Below, piece by piece: positions 3,519 through 39,982 of a stretch of 47,972 nucleotides of DNA. The stretch covers positions 1 through 47,972 of IMG/VR virus record IMGVR_UViG_3300024432_000018; one strand, written 5' to 3'. The translations under genes were made by a program, and so were the position numbers. This DNA comes from a virus. Under the pieces are notes generated by a model. The model was not told the origin of the DNA, searched no databases, and was given only the letters and a program-made list of their open reading frames with translations. How positions within the stretch are numbered: the first letter of the stretch is position 1; every line of letters starts with the position of its first letter.

Positions 3519-3882
3519 GCTCAATCAGGTGACCACAAAGACTGTAGATGCCAGTATCAAGGTTGAGCCTCCAAAAGCACCGATTAAGGCAAAGAGCATT
3601 ACCACTACCACTCTTCCAGATGTTGCTGATATAGCAGAGAAGAAGAGGCGTGATGATATCATGGCAGAGCAGAAACTTGCCATGAAGGATAAGAAGAAGA
3701 TTGTGATGGTAGAAAAGGAGACAAGCTTTCAGGAAAACATAGTTACCTATCAAAAAGAGCAAAATGAAATAATAGCTAAAGAAAAGAGCCTGAAGATGAA
3801 GGCAGAAAAGAAGCCTTGGAATAAGATGAATACTAAAGAGAGAAAAGAATATCAGGCAGAGAAAGCAAGGAAAAAGAAATGA
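3469..3882 (+). CDS. Lys-rich structural-operon protein, 137 aa
   Basis: A strongly basic, helical protein with repeated KK pairs and a C-terminal tail ending AEKARKKK. GGGAG lies upstream of the start. Position between portal and probable protease suggests a head-assembly or internal DNA-binding protein. No family is recognised. Its stop codon overlaps the next start (ATGA). Confidence 0.6.
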   Translation: MITTKQVNVNLEKGRIKLNQVTTKTVDASIKVEPPKAPIKAKSITTTTLPDVADIAEKKRRDDIMAEQKLAMKDKKKIVMVEKETSFQENIVTYQKEQNEIIAKEKSLKMKAEKKPWNKMNTKERKEYQAEKARKKK

Positions 3883-5578: not shown

Positions 5579-6658
5579 ATGATGAGAGGAAAAATAATAA
5601 AAGACTGGGATAAGGTTGACTGGAGAAAACTCTTTGTTCCTGGAGAGAAAGACGTACAACATCAGCGTGCGCTAATGAAGGCACTTTCATTCTTTCTTGC
5701 TATTCCCAACACGAATGTTCCCACACAATTTGCTAGCGACGAGAAGTTCACAGAGAAAAAGAAAGAATTTGACACGGCCAGGATGCAATATTTTGCCACA
5801 CTGAACGATTTCCCCGCAACCGCAAAGGAAGTCATAGACAAATATCACGAACTTGCCGTATATGACAATGGTTTTGAGCAGATCTTCAATATGCGTGATT
5901 ATACCGGATCAAGAAGAGATGGCTTTTCCATTGATACAGTACGGGCAGGACTGACTTTCAGGAAGATGCTAACTGGTGAAAAACTTCATGTCTATCAGAT
6001 GGAAGGAGAGAGAGAGTTCATATACTTCGATTACTATGGCGGAGCACTTGGATGGGATAGGAAGCTCTTTGAGAACCAGGATTGGTGGCAGCTTGAGGAG
6101 AATGCGATTGAATTCAGGAATGAGGCATACAGGATCAGAGCAGCCACGTTTTATGCTTTAATTGAGGCAGTAGGTACGGCTGCTGGATGGGTTGATATTG
6201 GTTGGGCGGCTCATCCCGATGGCGTTGCAGCTGGAAATAGAGGCTATATAGCAGCAAGAGATGCTGCGACCATGAATCTTGCAGCCCAGACAATTCTTCT
6301 GGCATGTCAGGCCAGCGGTTACGGAATTTCAGCACAGAATGTCTCATTTATCATCCTTGCACCAATCCAATTGAGAGCACGAATCAAGCAGGCCCTGGGC
6401 GTAAGTTATGATACAGCAGATCGTGCGACTTCTGTTATCGACTACAATTTCACCACAATTATCACAACCATGCTTGCAGTGACAGATCATTATTGGGTAA
6501 TTCTTCCCAAGAGAAAAATTGTCGGTGGGGATAGGCTGAATTTGGAGACCTATTCTGAATTCGACATGCTTTCTCGGACGGATTCAGCAGCCGGATGGAT
6601 GGCTTTTGCAGGTGGAATTGGAGATACGGACCAGATGGAGCGTTGCAATATCGTTTAG
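5579..6658 (+). CDS. Major capsid protein
   Basis: A 359-residue protein with the length and composition of an HK97-fold capsid subunit, following scaffold and decoration genes and followed by an intrinsic terminator. The N-terminal 60 or so residues are charged and helical; the rest alternates strands with aromatic-rich stretches such as EREFIYFDYYGGALGWDRK near residues 142-162. AAGGAG lies just upstream of the ATG. The assignment rests on gene order, size and general pattern. Confidence 0.8.
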   Translation: MMRGKIIKDWDKVDWRKLFVPGEKDVQHQRALMKALSFFLAIPNTNVPTQFASDEKFTEKKKEFDTARMQYFATLNDFPATAKEVIDKYHELAVYDNGFEQIFNMRDYTGSRRDGFSIDTVRAGLTFRKMLTGEKLHVYQMEGEREFIYFDYYGGALGWDRKLFENQDWWQLEENAIEFRNEAYRIRAATFYALIEAVGTAAGWVDIGWAAHPDGVAAGNRGYIAARDAATMNLAAQTILLACQASGYGISAQNVSFIILAPIQLRARIKQALGVSYDTADRATSVIDYNFTTIITTMLAVTDHYWVILPKRKIVGGDRLNLETYSEFDMLSRTDSAAGWMAFAGGIGDTDQMERCNIV

Positions 6659-6962: not shown

Positions 6963-7300
6963 GACAAGGAAAGAACTGGGGATATACGACAGAATTCTTC
7001 CGTAATGCTATGGTCAGCACCTACCATCTTGAAATAAAGGAAGGTGGGTACTGCTCAGAGCATCGCCATAAACATAAATACAATCTGTTTTATGTTCTCT
7101 CTGGAGTATTGGAATTGACAATCTGGCGTGATAAGAAAAATAAAGATATAACTGTTATTGAAGCAGGGCAATCAACTGCAATATCACCTGGCTTTTATCA
7201 TAAATTCAAGGGATTAACAAAATGCGAGGCTATCGAAATCTATCAAGTTCTTTTGATTGATCCCGATATTGAGCGTAGAACAGTAGGGGGCATTAAATAA
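6959..7300 (+). CDS. Small cupin-domain protein
   Basis: A 113-residue single-domain cupin. The first metal-binding motif is visible as HRHKHKYN near residues 36-43, with the downstream glycine-rich turn LSGVLEL and a second motif ending in a histidine in SPGFYHKF. Small cupins of this kind include sugar epimerases/isomerases and sugar-binding proteins. At the head of the glycosyltransferase block a role in nucleotide-sugar modification is a reasonable inference, but the substrate is unknown. Confidence 0.75.
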   Translation: MRQGKNWGYTTEFFRNAMVSTYHLEIKEGGYCSEHRHKHKYNLFYVLSGVLELTIWRDKKNKDITVIEAGQSTAISPGFYHKFKGLTKCEAIEIYQVLLIDPDIERRTVGGIK

Positions 7301-7398
7301 TGGAAATACCATTTGCTGTAATTTGGATACTTATTGGTATAGGTTTCTTTTTTTTAATATTAACATTTATAGATTTAATAAGACATGGGGGGCATTAA
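7300..7398 (+). CDS. 32-residue single-TM micro-protein
   Basis: The ATG overlaps the cupin stop (TAATG). Almost the whole product is one hydrophobic segment (residues 6-24, rich in Ile, Leu and Phe) followed by a short basic tail RHGGH. The gene is flanked by a direct repeat, GGGGGCATTAAATA, at 7286-7299 and 7388-7401. It may be a genuine membrane peptide or a by-product of a duplication at this junction. Confidence 0.4.
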   Translation: MEIPFAVIWILIGIGFFFLILTFIDLIRHGGH

Positions 7399-7401
7399 AT
7401 A

Positions 7402-9366
7402 GTGACCATAATAACCACGTCAGATATAAGAGTTAGTAAAATCGTAGAAGAAATGGACAGAAGAAGGGAGAACTGCAGGATTAAAAAGCAGAAAGAGGAT
7501 ATGATAAAGGCAAATTGGAAAGAACTCCATAAAAAGGGATTTGGCTATACGGCAGAGGGCAGGAAACCAGTAATTCTTGATTATGAACAGGGAAGAATGC
7601 TTTATGATATTCTGCCTGATGGATCATGGAAAAATCAAAGGTGTTTCATCATTGGAGGAGGCGAAAGCTTAAAGGGTTTCGATTTCTCCAAGTTGAAAAA
7701 CGAACTTGTGATCGGTGTGAACCGTGCTTATGAGATGGGCAACTGTACAATCAATTATGCTATGGATAACAATCTTTACCATTGGATAACGAAGGGAAAA
7801 CTAGGTTGGGAGGCAAAAAAGAGATTTAAAGATTTCAAGGGCATTCCTGTCTGGCTTGACTCTGCCGGTTATGACTATCCAAGAGGCATATTTATACTTA
7901 ATAAATTAGATAGTCATAAAAATAGTTATGTTATGAAAGATGGCATTAAATCGGGAACCAATGCGGGATTCGGTGCCTTGAATCTTGCTGTGTGCCTAGG
8001 GGCCAATCCTATATATCTCCTTGGATTCGATATGGAGGGTAAGGATGGGAAGCAAGTCTGGTGGCACAATGGATATCCCGAAAATCAAATAGAAAGGGTA
8101 TATGATAAATTCATTCTTGATTTCAAGAAAATAGTCCCAGACCTCAAAGAAAAAGGTATTCAGGTAATAAACCTTAATCCTGACAGCAAATTAAAGTGTT
8201 TTGATTTTGGAAAATTCGAAGATATAAAACCGATAAAGCGACCCGTGATCGTATCTTTTTATACAAAGGGAACCGGATATGAAGAGCAGGTAAAACAATT
8301 AAAAATTACTCTGAAGCGATTCAATCTGGAGAATGATGTTGTGGGTATTGCAGACAGAGGCAGTTGGCATAAAAATACTTATTATAAATCACAATTCATC
8401 CAGCAAATGATGAATAAGCATCGCGGACGTTCAATCGTCTATGTCGATGCGGATGCCAAGATGCGCATGAATCCTGTGTTGTTTAATAATCTTAAATGTG
8501 ATTTTGCCTGTCATTTTCACACAGGAAAAGAACTTCTTTCTGGAACGCTTTATTTTGGAAACACAAAGGGGGCTCGTTATTTAATTAAAAAATGGGTAGA
8601 AGAAGACAAGCTACATCCAGAGACCCCTATGCCACAGAAGAATCTGCGAACCGTATTTGACAGGGAGAAGAATAAAATTAAGTGGAAGGCATTGCCTGTT
8701 GAATATTGCATGATATATGACAGCCGTTCACGCTACAGAGTCAATCCAGTTATAGAGCATTTTCAGTTGAGCAGGCAGTACAAGGGTACAAAAAGCAAGC
8801 GGCACAAGGGTACAATAAATCAATCGCTTGTTGAAATACGAAAATTTTGTAAGGATAAAAAAATCTGCCTTCTCGGAAATGCCAATTCTATTCTTAATGG
8901 AAAAAAGGATATAGACTCATTTGATATAGTCTGTAGAATGAATAGGGGATATCCCGGGGGGAAAGAGAAGTTTATTGGTAGTCGTACCGATGTGCTTTTC
9001 TTATCAACGGGCTTGAGTGGTGAGAAGGTTCGGGGCTTATTTAACCCTCGTTTTGTTGTCTGGATGACCGCTTGCCATAGGTTGGCATATCCCTGGGTTT
9101 TTAAAAGTGCCGTACAAAATCCAGCAGAGGACTGGAAAGCTCTTCATAACAAGCTTTCCATAAACCCCACGACTGGCATTATGGCTTTGAATTTCATCCT
9201 CAAGCACATAGATTTTAAAAGTCTCGATATATATGGTTTTGATTTTTTCAAAACGAAGACTTGGTATAATGCAAAAATAGACAATGGACAGAAACATAGT
9301 GGGGAAAAAGAGGAAATTCTATTCATGAACATGATAAAAGATAGGCCAAATGTGAAATTCACATGA
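7402..9366 (+). CDS. Three-domain glycan enzyme: MAF/DUF115-like + GT-A-like + GT29-like
   Basis: A 654-residue fusion. Residues about 73-225 resemble the MAF/DUF115 (MptE-like) fold: CFIIGGGESLKGFDFSKLK, GVNRAYEMG, then LGFDMEG. Residues about 285-420 look like a GT-A nucleotide-sugar transferase with an acidic metal motif YVDADAKM near 345. Residues about 485-654 match the GT29 sialyltransferase pattern: large motif CLLGNANSIL...FDIVCRMNRG, small motif NPTTG near 588, and a final H...E motif (KHSGEKEEI) near 631. GT29 enzymes use CMP-sialic acid, but the donor here cannot be inferred. The start is GTG at 7402. It heads the sugar-transferase series. Confidence 0.75.
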   Translation: MTIITTSDIRVSKIVEEMDRRRENCRIKKQKEDMIKANWKELHKKGFGYTAEGRKPVILDYEQGRMLYDILPDGSWKNQRCFIIGGGESLKGFDFSKLKNELVIGVNRAYEMGNCTINYAMDNNLYHWITKGKLGWEAKKRFKDFKGIPVWLDSAGYDYPRGIFILNKLDSHKNSYVMKDGIKSGTNAGFGALNLAVCLGANPIYLLGFDMEGKDGKQVWWHNGYPENQIERVYDKFILDFKKIVPDLKEKGIQVINLNPDSKLKCFDFGKFEDIKPIKRPVIVSFYTKGTGYEEQVKQLKITLKRFNLENDVVGIADRGSWHKNTYYKSQFIQQMMNKHRGRSIVYVDADAKMRMNPVLFNNLKCDFACHFHTGKELLSGTLYFGNTKGARYLIKKWVEEDKLHPETPMPQKNLRTVFDREKNKIKWKALPVEYCMIYDSRSRYRVNPVIEHFQLSRQYKGTKSKRHKGTINQSLVEIRKFCKDKKICLLGNANSILNGKKDIDSFDIVCRMNRGYPGGKEKFIGSRTDVLFLSTGLSGEKVRGLFNPRFVVWMTACHRLAYPWVFKSAVQNPAEDWKALHNKLSINPTTGIMALNFILKHIDFKSLDIYGFDFFKTKTWYNAKIDNGQKHSGEKEEILFMNMIKDRPNVKFT

Positions 9367-19215: not shown

Positions 19216-19493
19216 GTCAGCCGATAATTGAGAAATATAATTCCGAGCGATTCAAGATTGGATTGCAGTATTTTCCGCCAGACTTGCCAGATGGCGAGAC
19301 GATTGACAAAGTGGATGTCGGGGTTTATCCTTTGGGATTGATGCTGGAGGGTGATTCTGAGATAGATGGAAATACGGTAAAGCAGATGATAGGCGGGGGA
19401 AAAAGGCTAACAAATTATGTCATCACTTTCAATGTAGAGATATCGACGGGAAACAGTTTTGAGAATACTATTTTAATAAAGATCGTTTTTTAG
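19212..19493 (+). CDS. Structural protein, 93 aa
   Basis: A small beta-rich protein with the segment FKIGLQYFPPDLPDGETI and a Gly-rich loop, typical of short genes between fibre-type and connector genes. It is translationally coupled to the repeat protein before it. No individual function can be given; a head-surface or connector-associated protein is likely. Confidence 0.55.
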   Translation: MSQPIIEKYNSERFKIGLQYFPPDLPDGETIDKVDVGVYPLGLMLEGDSEIDGNTVKQMIGGGKRLTNYVITFNVEISTGNSFENTILIKIVF

Positions 19494-19502
19494 GAGGTTA
19501 AG

Positions 19503-19964
19503 ATGAGTTTGGGATGGTTCGATGATCTCACGGATGCGAAGGCTTATTTTTCAACCGAGAGGCTTGTGACAACTAGCTGGGACGCAATGATCGACGCACT
19601 CAAAACCAAAGCCGTAACGAATGCCTATAACCGGATATTCTATAATTCCAAATATGACGTACCGACCTATGCTGCAGCTACGGCTGCCCAGTTGATAGTG
19701 TTAAAGAAGGTGAATGGTGAGATGGCTTATTATTTGGCACAGCATCTAGAGGATGAGGACAGGCGCATGGGCTTGCGCGCGCAAGGAGTTACAAAAGCAG
19801 GGATAGTAGAGGAAGAATACAAGGATGACATAGAGCTTCCTATCCCTCCGTTCATTGATGACATATTAGAAGAGGAGGGTTTTACAACCGAGAAGGCATT
19901 TGGTATGGTAGATGTGGACAGAGACGAGGATAAATCCGTTGATGAAAAGGTCGATAAATTTTAA
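19503..19964 (+). CDS. Head-tail connector-like protein
   Basis: A 153-residue helical protein with a DnaT-like/gp6-type head-tail connector pattern: MSLGWFDDLTDAKAYFSTERL followed by several helices and an acidic tail. Its position before the minor head and head-closure genes fits an adaptor that docks under the portal. GGAGGTTAAG precedes the ATG. Confidence 0.6.
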   Translation: MSLGWFDDLTDAKAYFSTERLVTTSWDAMIDALKTKAVTNAYNRIFYNSKYDVPTYAAATAAQLIVLKKVNGEMAYYLAQHLEDEDRRMGLRAQGVTKAGIVEEEYKDDIELPIPPFIDDILEEEGFTTEKAFGMVDVDRDEDKSVDEKVDKF

Positions 19965-33030: not shown

Positions 33031-33387
33031 TTAAGGTCTCATCAATGTTTTAATATTTCGATAAACAACATAACCTTTTATTACGGTCAAACCTACAATA
33101 ACTATCCAACCTAATTTCTTATCTCTCTTATAAATATAATCAGAGAGCTTGATAATAGTGATATTCAAAACAGTATGGATTGCTATGGTCAACGGCGGAT
33201 TCTTTATATACCATTGAGCCAATGGGTTCGCTTCAGAATAACCATGCTTAATCCCGTATAGAGTTATACTGACATCAACATAATCTAGTGTCACATAGCT
33301 TAATTGAAAAGCATTGAACGTCTTGTCTTCAGCGAAAAGCCCAGAGGCTAAAAACAATAACAGAATGAAGATAAGAAGTTTTTTCAT
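33031..33387 (-). CDS. Membrane protein with signal peptide, leftward
   Basis: A 118-residue protein read from the opposite strand. Residues 1-19 form a signal peptide (KKLLIFILLLFLASGLFA, then ED). Three hydrophobic segments follow near residues 65-80, 90-100 and 100-112, resembling small DUF5658-like membrane proteins. It is one of only two genes on the minus strand, suggesting a moron with its own control. It might change host membrane properties or block superinfection, but that is only inference. Confidence 0.6.
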   Translation of the reverse strand: MKKLLIFILLLFLASGLFAEDKTFNAFQLSYVTLDYVDVSITLYGIKHGYSEANPLAQWYIKNPPLTIAIHTVLNITIIKLSDYIYKRDKKLGWIVIVGLTVIKGYVVYRNIKTLMRP

Positions 33388-33396
33388 TTGATTCTC

Positions 33397-33738
33397 TTAT
33401 GATAATTTGTATGTAGCTCCTTTAAGTCCCAATTTCCTTATCTCTTTGCGGATTAGGATATCAGCCTTAATCTTTGAATCTGCTTCTACGCTAACTTCTG
33501 CAACTTTAGTGCCGAGTGACGATTTAATAGTAGCTCTGAATTTGATTTTGATGTCTGGCTCTGGTTTAGGTTTAGTTGATCTTAGAACCGATGCTATATA
33601 ATTACTCGGATGTCTTTTCTCAACACGATCAGGTGGATAGAAATCATGGCCAATGAGCTTAATTAGTCGTCCATGTAGCTCATCTTCAATCCAGATAAGT
33701 TCCCTCATATCACCATATGTGATTATACCTGCGGGCAT
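33397..33738 (-). CDS. Hypothetical leftward protein
   Basis: A 113-residue protein from the ATG at 33738, which has GGGAG five bases upstream on the minus strand. The reading frame is open up to TTG 33945, so a longer product of up to 182 residues cannot be excluded, although no better ribosome site is visible further upstream. The sequence has strands and a C-terminal block IKIKFRATIKSSLGTKVAEV. It lies ten bases from the membrane-protein gene and is probably in the same operon. Confidence 0.5.
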   Translation of the reverse strand: MPAGIITYGDMRELIWIEDELHGRLIKLIGHDFYPPDRVEKRHPSNYIASVLRSTKPKPEPDIKIKFRATIKSSLGTKVAEVSVEADSKIKADILIRKEIRKLGLKGATYKLS

Positions 33739-33954
33739 CTTGTCTCCCTTTTTTATCAGCCAACAATAGCGAGTATTCAATACCCCAGCATTGACTGTTC
33801 CAATTTCTCTTTTTGTCAGATTCTCTTTCATAGCAATACTAATATAGGTTATATGACCATACATTGTAATAGTCTTTGGAGATGAAATTATCTCATCTGA
33901 AAGGATTAGACATTCTAGGGGGAGAAAATAGTTTGTGAATGGCAAAGAAAAAGC

Positions 33955-33984
33955 TTGACAAAGGCTTTTCTAGTGCGTTATAAT
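33955..33984 (+). promoter_or_regulatory. Strong sigma70-type promoter for the rightward early genes
   Basis: TTGACA (33955-33960), 18-base spacer, TATAAT (33979-33984): both boxes are perfect consensus. The predicted transcript start is near 33991, 52 bases before the first gene ATG. No other strong promoter lies between the divergent leftward genes and this early region. Confidence 0.85.
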
Positions 33985-36471: not shown

Positions 36472-36612
36472 ATGACAATTACAAAAAATCAATTTGATAA
36501 TTTTGCTAGAGATGTTTGGCAGGAAACTAAAATTGATAAAGAATGGTTTATTGATTTATTGAAGTATTTCTTACTAATTCATTTAGCAATTGAAATTAAG
36601 GAGGATAAATGA
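36472..36612 (+). CDS. Small helical protein, 46 aa
   Basis: AAGGAGGATAA lies upstream of the ATG, and its own 3' end contains AAGGAGGATAA for the ATPase gene. The sequence is a helical amphipathic peptide. It may be a leader coupling expression of the ATPase. Confidence 0.45.
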   Translation: MTITKNQFDNFARDVWQETKIDKEWFIDLLKYFLLIHLAIEIKEDK

Positions 36613-37631
36613 CATTATTACAAAAATCAAAGCCAGAAATGGCATATCTCAAGGCTGGTCTCTATGGGGAAGCGGGAAGTGGAAAAACTTTCACAGCTTC
36701 CCAATTTGCCATCGGTCTCCATAAGTACATTAAATCCAATAAGGCAATTGCTTTCTTGGATACCGAGACAGGTTCGGATTTCGTATTGCCAAAATTCAAG
36801 CAAGATAAGATTGAACTTATGGTAGCAAAGACCAGAGCATTCGCCGACCTGCTTACAGTCGTTGATGAGGCAGAAAAAAGCTGCTCAATTCTCATTGTTG
36901 ATTCTATCACCCATTTCTGGAATGAGCTCCTGGACAGCTACCAAAAGAAACACAACATAAGCCGGATCACTCTAAGACACTGGATTCCGTTAAAGCAGAT
37001 GTGGCGAGAATTCACAACTCGATTCATAAATTCAAAGCTCCATATCATAATGGCTGGCCGATCAGCGTATATCTGGGATGATGTTGAAGATGAGGAAGGA
37101 GTGAAGGAGCTAAAAAAGACAGGTACAAAAATGAGAGCAGAGACAGAGATGGGATATGAACCAAGCCTACTTGTGGAGATGGAGACGGTGAGAACATCAG
37201 CGCGGACAGGTGCTAATTGGATTCATAGGGCATGGGTAATCAAGGATAGGTTCGATGTTATCGATGGTAAATGCTTCGACAATCCAGGATTCGATTCATT
37301 CCTACCGCATATTAAATCATTGAATCTCGGTGGCAAGCACAGGGCAATGGATAAAGACAGGGATTCTCAGGCTATTCTCAATAATGACAATAGAGGTGAG
37401 GCAGTATTCAGGAAAATAAAAATTATAACAGAGAAGGTTCAGAATGCAGTTTACAGAGCTTTTCCAGGACAGACTGCAAAAGATAAACTTGGAAGGATGG
37501 ATTTGCTCAAGAAGGCATTCGACACAGATTCCTGGACTGCAATCACATCTATGCGGAGAGAGGATTTGGAAGTCGGATTAAAAATAATCGAAAGTGAAAT
37601 AAGAAAGGAGGTAAAAAGTGAGAGAAATTAA
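36609..37631 (+). CDS. Sak4-like AAA+ recombination ATPase
   Basis: A 340-residue ATPase with Walker A GEAGSGKT at residues 20-27 and Walker B SILIVDS at 93-99 (D98). The rest matches the RecA-like single-strand annealing or Sak4 family: a D-T-E-T-G-S-like segment near residue 51 and helical C-terminus. Sak4 acts with SSB in phage recombination and replication. The SSB analogue is encoded two genes later. It overlaps both neighbours. Confidence 0.75.
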   Translation: MTLLQKSKPEMAYLKAGLYGEAGSGKTFTASQFAIGLHKYIKSNKAIAFLDTETGSDFVLPKFKQDKIELMVAKTRAFADLLTVVDEAEKSCSILIVDSITHFWNELLDSYQKKHNISRITLRHWIPLKQMWREFTTRFINSKLHIIMAGRSAYIWDDVEDEEGVKELKKTGTKMRAETEMGYEPSLLVEMETVRTSARTGANWIHRAWVIKDRFDVIDGKCFDNPGFDSFLPHIKSLNLGGKHRAMDKDRDSQAILNNDNRGEAVFRKIKIITEKVQNAVYRAFPGQTAKDKLGRMDLLKKAFDTDSWTAITSMRREDLEVGLKIIESEIRKEVKSERN

Positions 37632-38328
37632 ATTTAGGGCTGAGTATCAAGGAAGGCTTTATGATGTAATGACTAGATTACCTAAGGTTATAAGACATCC
37701 AAGATACAAAGGATGGCATTATTGCAATGGTTATGTCATGCGACTGATTACAGAACATCCCTTTGCTAATAAGCGAGGGTATGTTCCTGAGCATAGGCTA
37801 GTAATGGAAGAATATCTAAGTAGATTCTTGATGCCGTGGGAAAAGATACATCATAGAGACCAAAACAGAGCAAACAATGAATTTTCTAATCTAGAACTCT
37901 TCGGCAAACAATCTAACCATGCAGAGAACCACCTGCGGGGGGAAAGAAATCCACATGGTCAATTCATTGCAAATGAACCAATTTTTAGTGACTTAAAATT
38001 CCGCCTTTATAATCAGAATACAAGAACAACAAAAATTTATACACTTGCTACTTTAATTGGGACAACCTTTAGGCGTGGACAATTCCAATTTCGAGGAAGA
38101 TTTACGGGCTTAAAGGACAAGAACGGTAAGGAGATTTATGAGGGTGATGTCATTGCAATAGAAGATCATGTGAATCATGTCGTAGACTTTAAAGATGGAA
38201 TGTTTATGTGGGGAAATATTAGACCATATATACCCATCCACGAAAAACTAGAACAATGTCCTTGTGAAATTATCGGCAACATCCATGAGAATCCAGATTT
38301 ATTAAAATCTAAAAAGGAGGCAAAATAA
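37618..38328 (+). CDS. YopX-like protein with inserted HNH domain (HNH endonuclease 2)
   Basis: A 236-residue protein from GTG 37618 (AAAGGAGG upstream). The N-terminal MREIKFRAEYQGRLYDVM and C-terminal FTGLKDKNGKEIYEGDVI...IIGNIHENPDLL are the two halves of a YopX protein. Between them (residues ~30-120) is an HNH block: PEHRLVMEEYL, KIHHRDQNRANNEFSNLELFGKQSNH and a GERNPHGQ tail. So the nuclease has been inserted in frame into an otherwise standard YopX protein. It overlaps the ATPase gene and the SSB-like gene. Confidence 0.7.
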   Translation: MREIKFRAEYQGRLYDVMTRLPKVIRHPRYKGWHYCNGYVMRLITEHPFANKRGYVPEHRLVMEEYLSRFLMPWEKIHHRDQNRANNEFSNLELFGKQSNHAENHLRGERNPHGQFIANEPIFSDLKFRLYNQNTRTTKIYTLATLIGTTFRRGQFQFRGRFTGLKDKNGKEIYEGDVIAIEDHVNHVVDFKDGMFMWGNIRPYIPIHEKLEQCPCEIIGNIHENPDLLKSKKEAK

Positions 38329-38732
38329 TGGGATTACCACCGTATGAACCTAATTTAATTCAGGAAGGTCATTATACCTTCAAAGTATCAGAGGATTATG
38401 AACAGAGGCGTGGAGAAAATGATGGGCTTTACATCATCTTTAAATTCAAGATCATCAGTAAGGATGGTTCATCAAGGAAATACAATGATATTTTCGTTCC
38501 CTGGGAAGAGAGATACAAGGATCTTCTCTTGGCTTTTGGTGCTACACCAGATGAGAAAGGAAAAGTTCATTTAGGGGATATAAATATTATTGGGAAGCAA
38601 TTCGAGGCTGATATTGTCCATGTCAAAGATTCAAGGGATCCTACCAAAGTCAGAGATAAGATAGCGAATATTGTTGTCAACGATGATGTGCCACCACCTG
38701 AAGATCCAGGAGAAGAAGAGATTCCTTTTTGA
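38328..38732 (+). CDS. SSB-like protein (DUF669-type) with acidic C-terminal tail
   Basis: A 134-residue protein. The first 100 residues form strands in an OB-fold-like pattern. The C-terminus ends DPGEEEIPF, equivalent to the acidic tail of bacterial SSB (DDDIPF-type) that binds recombination and replication proteins. It probably coats single-stranded DNA and recruits the ATPase encoded two genes upstream. AAGGAGGC precedes the ATG. Confidence 0.7.
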   Translation: MGLPPYEPNLIQEGHYTFKVSEDYEQRRGENDGLYIIFKFKIISKDGSSRKYNDIFVPWEERYKDLLLAFGATPDEKGKVHLGDINIIGKQFEADIVHVKDSRDPTKVRDKIANIVVNDDVPPPEDPGEEEIPF

Positions 38733-38743
38733 GTAGATATTGT

Positions 38744-38772
38744 TTGACATAGAGGTTTAATTCTTATATGAT
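38744..38772 (+). promoter_or_regulatory. Sigma70-type promoter for the structured RNA
   Basis: TTGACA (38744-38749), 17-base spacer, TATGAT (38767-38772). It lies in a 165-base gap without a coding gene, directly before the inverted-repeat transcript. Predicted start is near 38779. Confidence 0.8.
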
Positions 38773-38779
38773 TTGAATA

Positions 38780-38889
38780 TGCTGGTAGTAAATAATGAGA
38801 CATGAATTAACAGCCCTTGAACTGGTCTGCCCTAATTTTAGGGTATCCAATCGCTACCAGCAAGATCGGGGAGAGGGCTCTTCTTTTCT
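38780..38889 (+). ncRNA. Structured RNA or regulatory leader (unassigned)
   Basis: A stem is formed by TGCTGGTAG (38780-38788) and CTACCAGCA (38854-38862), perfect over nine base pairs. Inside it CCCTAA (38830-38835) pairs with TTAGGG (38838-38843). After the main stem, a G-rich stretch pairs with CTCTTCTTTTCT-type bases (38869-38889) like a weak terminator. The unit starts just after a good promoter and ends before the SD of the next gene. It may be a small phage RNA or a riboswitch-like 5' leader. It is not a tRNA: no complete cloverleaf can be drawn. Confidence 0.55.
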
Positions 38890-38897
38890 AAGGATGG

Positions 38898-39119
38898 ATG
38901 ATGATAGATAAAAACAAAAAAGAGGTCGAATATAATGCAGAATATTTTATTGATGATTTGACTAATTTGCTTTCTTCATTTATGAATAAAATGGATATTA
39001 TGAAAGAGATGGAATTCACACTGAAACAGAAATCTCAAATTGCTGGTTTGATTTTGGGTGTAGTGACTTCATTTAATAAAATAAATGAAATGCTAAAACA
39101 ATGGGGATTTTTATCATAA
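38898..39119 (+). CDS. Hypothetical protein after the structured RNA, 73 aa
   Basis: A helical protein; ATG codons lie at 38898 and 38901, with AAGGATGG before them. Because the structured RNA lies immediately upstream it may be under its control. No family is recognised. Confidence 0.5.
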   Translation: MMIDKNKKEVEYNAEYFIDDLTNLLSSFMNKMDIMKEMEFTLKQKSQIAGLILGVVTSFNKINEMLKQWGFLS

Positions 39120-39129
39120 GGATGGATGA

Positions 39130-39297
39130 ATGAAAAAATTATCAATGATTATTCGTTTCATTTTAACCTTTTTATTAATTTATGGGGCATACACAGAAAC
39201 AGGAATATGGACAGCATTATCTTTATTTCTAATATTTATGAGTGTGGAAATTCAAAGTTATTTAATTAGGAAAAGTAATGAAAAAAAGATTTGTTGA
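39130..39297 (+). CDS. Membrane micro-protein, 55 aa
   Basis: Two hydrophobic segments (IIRFILTFLLIYGAY and WTALSLFLIFMSV) separated by a short turn, with a basic end. It overlaps the replisome-organizer gene by 20 bases. AAGGATGGATGA precedes the ATG, the same spacing as for the previous gene. Confidence 0.5.
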   Translation: MKKLSMIIRFILTFLLIYGAYTETGIWTALSLFLIFMSVEIQSYLIRKSNEKKIC

Positions 39298-39982
39298 AAG
39301 ACCTTGGTTTCCGTTCTGGGCGGATAAGTGGATTTTTGGTTCTATGCGAATCGAATGCACTCTAGAAGAAAGAGCAATATGGATTGACCTCCTTGCATTC
39401 GCTTCTAAGGATGATGGTTATATTAGGGCAAATGAAACAACACCATATTTAATTCAGCAATTAGTTGGGATGCTTTTGATTCCTGAAGATAAATTAAAAC
39501 CTGCTATTAAAAAATTCATAAAGTTAGATAAATTAGAAGAACCAATATCTGGAATTTATAGGATAGCAACTTGGGAAAAATACCAATTATCAGAAAGTTA
39601 TAATAGGGTACAAAAGCATCGAAAGAAGAAAAAAGGGGGGAAAGCGTTACACTGTAACGAAAATGGCGTTACCAAATCATATCATAATAAACTAAATCAT
39701 AATAAACTAAATAATAATACATACACCGATGAGTTTTCTCTCTTTTGGAATTACTATAACTACAAAGTCGCAAAGAAAGATGCACTAAAGGCATTTGAAG
39801 CACTTAGAAGAAAGGGTGAAACATTCGATAATATCATGGAAGCTGCTAAAGGATATTTTAATCATTTAAGGAATGAGAAGGTACATAGCAATTTTGAAAA
39901 GGCGATGATGTATCCAGCAACTTTTTTAAGGAATGAGAAATGGAAAGATTTTCTCGGAGTTAAATATAATCCACCAATGTAA
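39278..39982 (+). CDS. Replisome organizer / DnaD-like protein
   Basis: A 234-residue protein. The N-terminal 110 residues match the phage replisome-organizer N-terminal pattern (PWFPFWADKWIFGSMRIECTLEERAIWIDLL...). After a Lys-rich and Asn-rich linker (residues 112-150) the C-terminal domain (SLFWNYYNYKVAKKDALKAFEALRRKG) resembles helicase-loader or DnaD-type ends. It would bind the origin and recruit the host helicase. The linker DNA contains the origin-like repeats listed separately. Confidence 0.65.
   Translation: MKKRFVERPWFPFWADKWIFGSMRIECTLEERAIWIDLLAFASKDDGYIRANETTPYLIQQLVGMLLIPEDKLKPAIKKFIKLDKLEEPISGIYRIATWEKYQLSESYNRVQKHRKKKKGGKALHCNENGVTKSYHNKLNHNKLNNNTYTDEFSLFWNYYNYKVAKKDALKAFEALRRKGETFDNIMEAAKGYFNHLRNEKVHSNFEKAMMYPATFLRNEKWKDFLGVKYNPPM
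39645..39720. other. Candidate replication origin inside the initiator gene
   Basis: CGTTAC (39645-39650) and GTAACG (39654-39659) form an inverted repeat with a 3-base spacer, and CGTTAC recurs at 39667-39672. The following AT-rich tract has two perfect 15-base tandem units, ATCATAATAAACTAA, at 39681-39695 and 39696-39710, plus a degenerate third. This resembles lambda-type origins in which iterons and an AT-rich unwinding site sit within the initiator gene. Not tested. Confidence 0.55.

Follow-up and report, generated by a model that had tools for sequence, protein, structure and literature searches.

A candidate pseudoknotted leader RNA at the head of an early operon in an uncultured bacterial virus

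The window analysed here is the whole 47,972-base IMG/VR virus record IMGVR_UViG_3300024432_000018, from an uncultured bacterial virus, and its genes are tightly packed and, for the most part, rightward. Among its few intergenic gaps is one of 165 bases (38733-38897), which separates a gene whose product is probably single-stranded-DNA-binding-like (SSB-like), a label given from its position and C-terminus, from an open reading frame (ORF) of 73 amino acids (Table 1). Neither Pfam nor PHROG gave a match for the SSB-like protein. Upstream of it lie a Sak4-like AAA_24 gene and an HNH/YopX gene. In the latter, the C-terminal part of YopX is preceded by a fused HNH endonuclease segment, an arrangement that looks like the insertion of a homing endonuclease into yopX. 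A 13-nt string, TAAGGATGGATGA, is repeated at two consecutive gene starts (38890-38901 and 39117-39129). Elsewhere in the window, a perfect 12/12 promoter, TTGACA-18-TATAAT at 33955-33984, adjoins leftward genes (33031-33945) and is likely to be the main early promoter.

Table 1. Genes and predicted RNA features around the gap, in window coordinates
Feature	Position	Strand	Basis or remark
Sak4-like AAA_24 gene	36609-37631		upstream of SSB-like gene
HNH/YopX gene	37618-38328		upstream of SSB-like gene
SSB-like gene	38328-38732	+	ORF call; syntenic relatives with acidic ..DIPF end; upstream of RNA
sigma70-type promoter TTGACA-17-TATGAT	38744-38772	+	-35 at 38744-38749, -10 at 38767-38772
P1 5' strand UGCUGGUAGU	38780-38789	+	folding and covariation
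A-rich loop L1	38790-38811	+	conserved AAUGAGA at 38794-38800; homologue alignments
Open frame of 38 aa, from AUG of AAUGAGA	38795-38911	+	codon score between coding and non-coding
Pseudoknot (PK) 5' strand AGCCCUU	38812-38818	+	fold test; re-formed in L127 and L169
P2 hairpin UGCCCUA-AUUU-UAGGGUA	38824-38848	+	pairs 38828-38834/38839-38845; inside internal loop GGUC..UAUCC
P1 3' strand GCUACCAGCA	38853-38862	+	folding and covariation
10-nt linker	38863-38872	+	GAUCGG at 38864-38869; about 10 nt in 3/3 members
PK 3' strand GAGGGCU	38873-38879	+	fold test
Pyrimidine/U-rich tract CUUCUUUUCU	38880-38889	+	directly 3' of PK; possible terminator tail
Shine-Dalgarno (SD) AAGGA	38890-38894	+	precedes 73-aa gene
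73-aa gene, function without assignment	38898-39119	+	first of operon toward replisome organiser gene
Replisome organiser gene	39278-39982		same operon as 73-aa gene; a 55-aa ORF also lies downstream of RNA

The sequence-only reading had proposed that the gap holds a promoter, and one is present inside it with 11/12 matches, from which transcription is predicted to start at about 38779, one base before P1. TTGACA/TATGAT-like sites as such are not over-represented, five being found in the whole window and 1-5 in shuffles. The RNA that would follow has the architecture of an H-type pseudoknot, in which P1 (10 bp) encloses P2 (7 bp) and is crossed by a third helix, PK (7 bp). The perfect 9-bp stem that had been described at 38780-38788/38854-38862 is exact, and it lengthens to 10 bp via a U.G pair; about 25 distinct exact 9-bp inverted repeats with the spacing of P1 occur in the window, so that the stem alone is weak evidence. 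The 85-nt P1 unit reaches -27.0 kcal/mol, against -15.8 +/- 3.0 kcal/mol for shuffled sequences, 3/1000 of which are as good; for the 117-nt region, the minimum-energy fold departs only mildly from expectation (z -1.46). An inner hairpin had also been noticed, and it is there, with 7 bp, one of them G.U, rather than the 6 bp given. As to the terminator-like end, a hairpin GGGGAG-AGGG-CUCUUC followed by UUUUCU does exist, but it is weak and no more frequent than chance predicts (1 found against 1.0 expected), and it competes with the crossing helix AGCCCUU/GAGGGCU, which had been overlooked. The summed stacking of P1, PK and P2 is -49.9, compared with -31.2 +/- 3.8 for dinucleotide shuffles, none of which (0/1000) is as good. 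This architecture was picked after being seen, which makes the shuffle test post hoc, and therefore homologues were searched for.

A search with the AAA protein led to related phages, whose DNA was searched with covariance models based on only the window sequence (R1), on two sequences (R2) and on three (R3). R1 found a match in L127, a related uncultured phage with an AAA protein 58% identical (positions 7293-7409, 56.4 bits, E 1.4e-9). R2, which was also run with filters off, found another in L169, whose AAA protein resembles that of the window (positions 2248-2380, 27.3 bits, with E 6e-4 when 280 kb were searched and 1.8e-3 when 793 kb were); taken alone, the L169 locus is the weaker evidence. 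On sequence evidence the family thus numbers only three, each in an uncultured phage, and the AAA genes of these phages are related. The members share a P1 of 10-11 bp, an A-rich L1 with AAUGAG, the PK, P2, the 10-nt linker and an upstream promoter-like site. Across the three members these sites read TTGACA-17-TATGAT/TAGAAT/TAGGAT, score 10-11/12 matches and have their -10 elements 7, 13 and 20 nt before P1. The spacing is common as well, with AUGAG just after P1, the PK 5' strand 15-17 nt past the AUG, and about 10 nt between the 3' strands of P1 and PK. Three unpaired blocks, AAUGAGA, GGUC..UAUCC and GAUCGG, are the same in the window and L127.

The helices, in turn, are each re-formed with different bases across the three members. 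P1 pairs UGCUGGUAGU with GCUACCAGCA in the window, CCCGGAUAGC with GCUGUCCGGG in L127 and ACCGGCCAGG with CCUGGCCGGU in L169, and PK pairs AGCCCUU with GAGGGCU, GAACCCCCAG with CUGGGGGUUC and GACCCC with GGGGUC. In the three-sequence alignment, both-side compensatory changes are found in 12/20 P1/P2 pairs and 96.7% of cells are paired, a result reached by 0/500 shuffles; shifting the pairing partners by 1-3 columns abolishes pairing. This alignment was fitted to the model structure, and window against L127 needs just one 2-nt gap. Within each member, the two P1 strands form a much better stem with each other than with the P1 strands of other members. PK prefers its own partner in the window and in L127, and the L169 PK 5' strand pairs at least equally well with the 3' strands of two other loci; PK strands are C-rich/G-rich in all members, which makes cross-pairing partly possible.

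Whether the interval codes for protein bears directly on this RNA, as a conserved coding frame had been named as one finding that would speak against it. The gap had been said to encode no protein; a 38-aa frame is open there, but comparison argues against selection on its protein. A small protein or leader peptide could start at the AUG of AAUGAGA, with the stems incidental or serving ribosome-mediated attenuation; the frame is open and overlaps the start of the next gene in 3/3 members (window 38795-38911, L127 7309-7440, L169 2263-2631), and SD-like purines lie within the P1 5' strand. However, over 22 codons compared between the window and L127, the differences are spread nearly evenly by codon position (10/10/7), with 17 nonsynonymous codon changes and 1 synonymous, so that neither amino-acid conservation nor third-position bias is seen between these homologues. 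A 2-nt indel after P1 shifts the frame, no Pfam or PHROG family corresponds to it, and its codon score is intermediate. A conserved protein from this frame is therefore unlikely, judging from the sequences, and we consider the small-protein explanation as a whole very improbable; the frame may be translated as a regulatory leader.

Neither the window RNA nor its L127 counterpart matches any family in Rfam 15, including riboswitches, EAR, C4 antisense RNA and phage RNAs, when a covariance-model score at or above the gathering score of the family is required; the best sub-threshold matches are chance hits to unrelated snoRNA/miRNA-type families. R3 found no additional member in 1.5 Mb of phage DNA, and a search of 247 genomes from a single phylum also gave none; its best score was 25 bits, and its two matches were set aside because they resemble ordinary terminators. 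Most of the AAA/SSB relatives searched carry no copy of the RNA. The window DNA showed no similarity to phages at a meaningful E, the L127 copy none to plasmids, and the SSB and 73-aa proteins, as single queries, retrieved no relatives. Matches in IMG/VR to the pattern GCTGGTAG..CTACCAGC were attributed to chance, and the pattern AATGAGA..GGTCTG..TATCCA returned L127 and otherwise chance-like hits, none of them matched by R2. The proposal of a novel structured RNA has thus held up, with two homologues from the covariance search that had been suggested as its check, compensatory changes in P1 and P2, a re-formed PK, no Rfam family and no conserved protein. The structure and conservation of the RNA are well supported, and, very probably, this folded molecule of about 110 bases is a genuine RNA whose family is still missing from the catalogues.

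What this RNA does is less certain. The best explanation, to which we give about even weight on sequence grounds, is that the RNA (approximately 38779-38889) serves as a cis-acting, pseudoknotted 5' leader to an early operon of phage replication/recombination genes and represents a family outside Rfam. Under this model, an H-type pseudoknot containing an A-rich loop would be built from P1, P2 and the crossing C-rich/G-rich helix, and the PK, by being formed or unformed, would set how much transcription (through attenuation or bypass of a terminator) or how much ribosome entry carries on into the operon. The computational evidence extends to the structure, its compensatory changes, the promoter-like sites upstream and the place at the operon head; transcription itself, the direction of control and whatever the PK may sense or bind are what we infer here. 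In each member the RNA heads a co-directional early operon, which comprises the 73-aa gene and then the replisome organiser in the window, a 49-aa gene, an MT-A70 methylase and a putative replication gene in L127, and zinc-ribbon ORFs, AAA and SSB in L169. In the window and L127, a U-rich tract (CUUCUUUUCU and UUUCUUUUUU, respectively) follows directly after the PK 3' strand, and the start of the next gene comes within about 20 nt of the PK helix and tract.

The main rival, ranked after the leader and tentative at best, is a free small RNA, about 110 nt long and with its own promoter, in which the PK helix as terminator stem and the U tract would end the RNA, and which would act in trans on a host or phage protein or mRNA. 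The promoter, the compact fold and, in the window and L127, the U tract adjoining the 3' end of the PK strand are consistent with it, as are the neighbouring genes, which differ in each phage; these differences among the downstream genes also argue against control of one particular gene. Moreover, strong promoters with P1 and PK ending on U tracts were found at 4 distinct loci among about 530, compared with 1 among 1677 random positions. L169, however, is without a U run, the window tract is weak and its classical terminator hairpin no better than chance, and the RNA is always sense-oriented at the head of an operon, with the SD of the next gene about 11 nt past the PK in the window. The U-rich tract after the PK, the operon-head position and this nearby SD therefore favour the cis-acting leader, and gene context leans toward it over a small RNA.

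The same promoter scan bears on the wider idea that these RNAs belong to a widespread, unrecognised class of promoter-proximal phage RNAs, in which the PK helix is a switchable terminator or gate, and which would join the present family with look-alikes in the unrelated phages L131 and L019; we regard it as unlikely. In the scan, enrichment at promoters relative to random positions was confined to the U-tail subset and absent for the geometric score alone, and one candidate (L132) was discounted, being inside a likely coding frame. The L019 element (3733-3865, identical in L076) lies right after a NinG/DUF1364-type gene and has the architecture of the window RNA in an unrelated sequence, with TTGACA-18-TATGAT, P1 GTGGTCGCAACA/TGTTGCGACCAT, PK GCCATTTTCT/AGAAAGTGGC and then TTTTTT. 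That of L131 (minus strand, about 6355-6530; L199 about 19365-19540) has TTGACA-17-TATATT, a 12-bp P1 TGCTTATGGAGA/TCTCCATAAGCA and a 9-bp PK CCCCCGACG/CGTCGGGGG, and it stands directly 5' of a gene for a probable membrane-anchored hydrolase, probably a lysis gene. The string CACAAGACAAA is common to the A-rich loops of L131 and L019. GC-rich long-range stems after SSB genes in L160, L166, L167, L168 and L170 were considered as the same element and rejected, since they are unmatched by R2 and R3 and look like another hairpin type. A separate element is indeed found after SSB or DUF1364 genes (L166 4363-4497, L167 4397-4607, L168 4368-4520, L170 4367-4494, L237 5039-5110), tandem in L167 and L168, and is composed of a long-range GC stem (e.g. 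GCCGGGG..CCCCGGC), a pyrimidine-rich loop, a TTTT tract and the SD of the next gene.

Phage genomes are protein-packed, and few structured phage RNAs have been catalogued. The finding of a covarying pseudoknot RNA that comes joined to an early promoter and has been shuffled among different replication/recombination operons suggests a portable module controlling the onset of phage DNA metabolism, and three aligned members with a fold make it amenable to probing, mutation and large-scale search.

Three known systems offer points of comparison. In fluoride/crcB-type attenuator riboswitches, which lie upstream of a gene, an H-type pseudoknot overlaps the terminator-like end, an arrangement also predicted for the window RNA, which differs from them in that there is no Rfam match at a relevant score and no conserved regulated gene. 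The put RNAs of HK022 are structured, promoter-proximal on phage early transcripts and composed of two adjacent hairpins, and they function in antitermination. A put-like signal, modifying RNA polymerase in cis past terminators, would be a special case of the cis-acting leader, and we hold it to be improbable; the window RNA would likewise open an early phage transcript, beginning at about +2 of the predicted one, co-directional early genes come next and no protein partner is apparent, but its anatomy is another, with P1 enclosing P2 and crossed by the PK in place of tandem hairpins, and the U tract after the PK points the opposite way. In the translational operator of gene 32 in T4/RB69, the T4 pseudoknot component is about 28 nt long, and the operator lies immediately 5' of the ribosome-binding site of the SSB gene (PMC535899). 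The window RNA, in contrast, is about 110 nt long with P1, P2 and its own promoter, and it follows the SSB-like gene, preceding the unrelated 73-aa ORF. Both are phage pseudoknots 5' of a Shine-Dalgarno sequence, beside an unstructured U/A-rich stretch and in a replication/recombination context (PMC535899).
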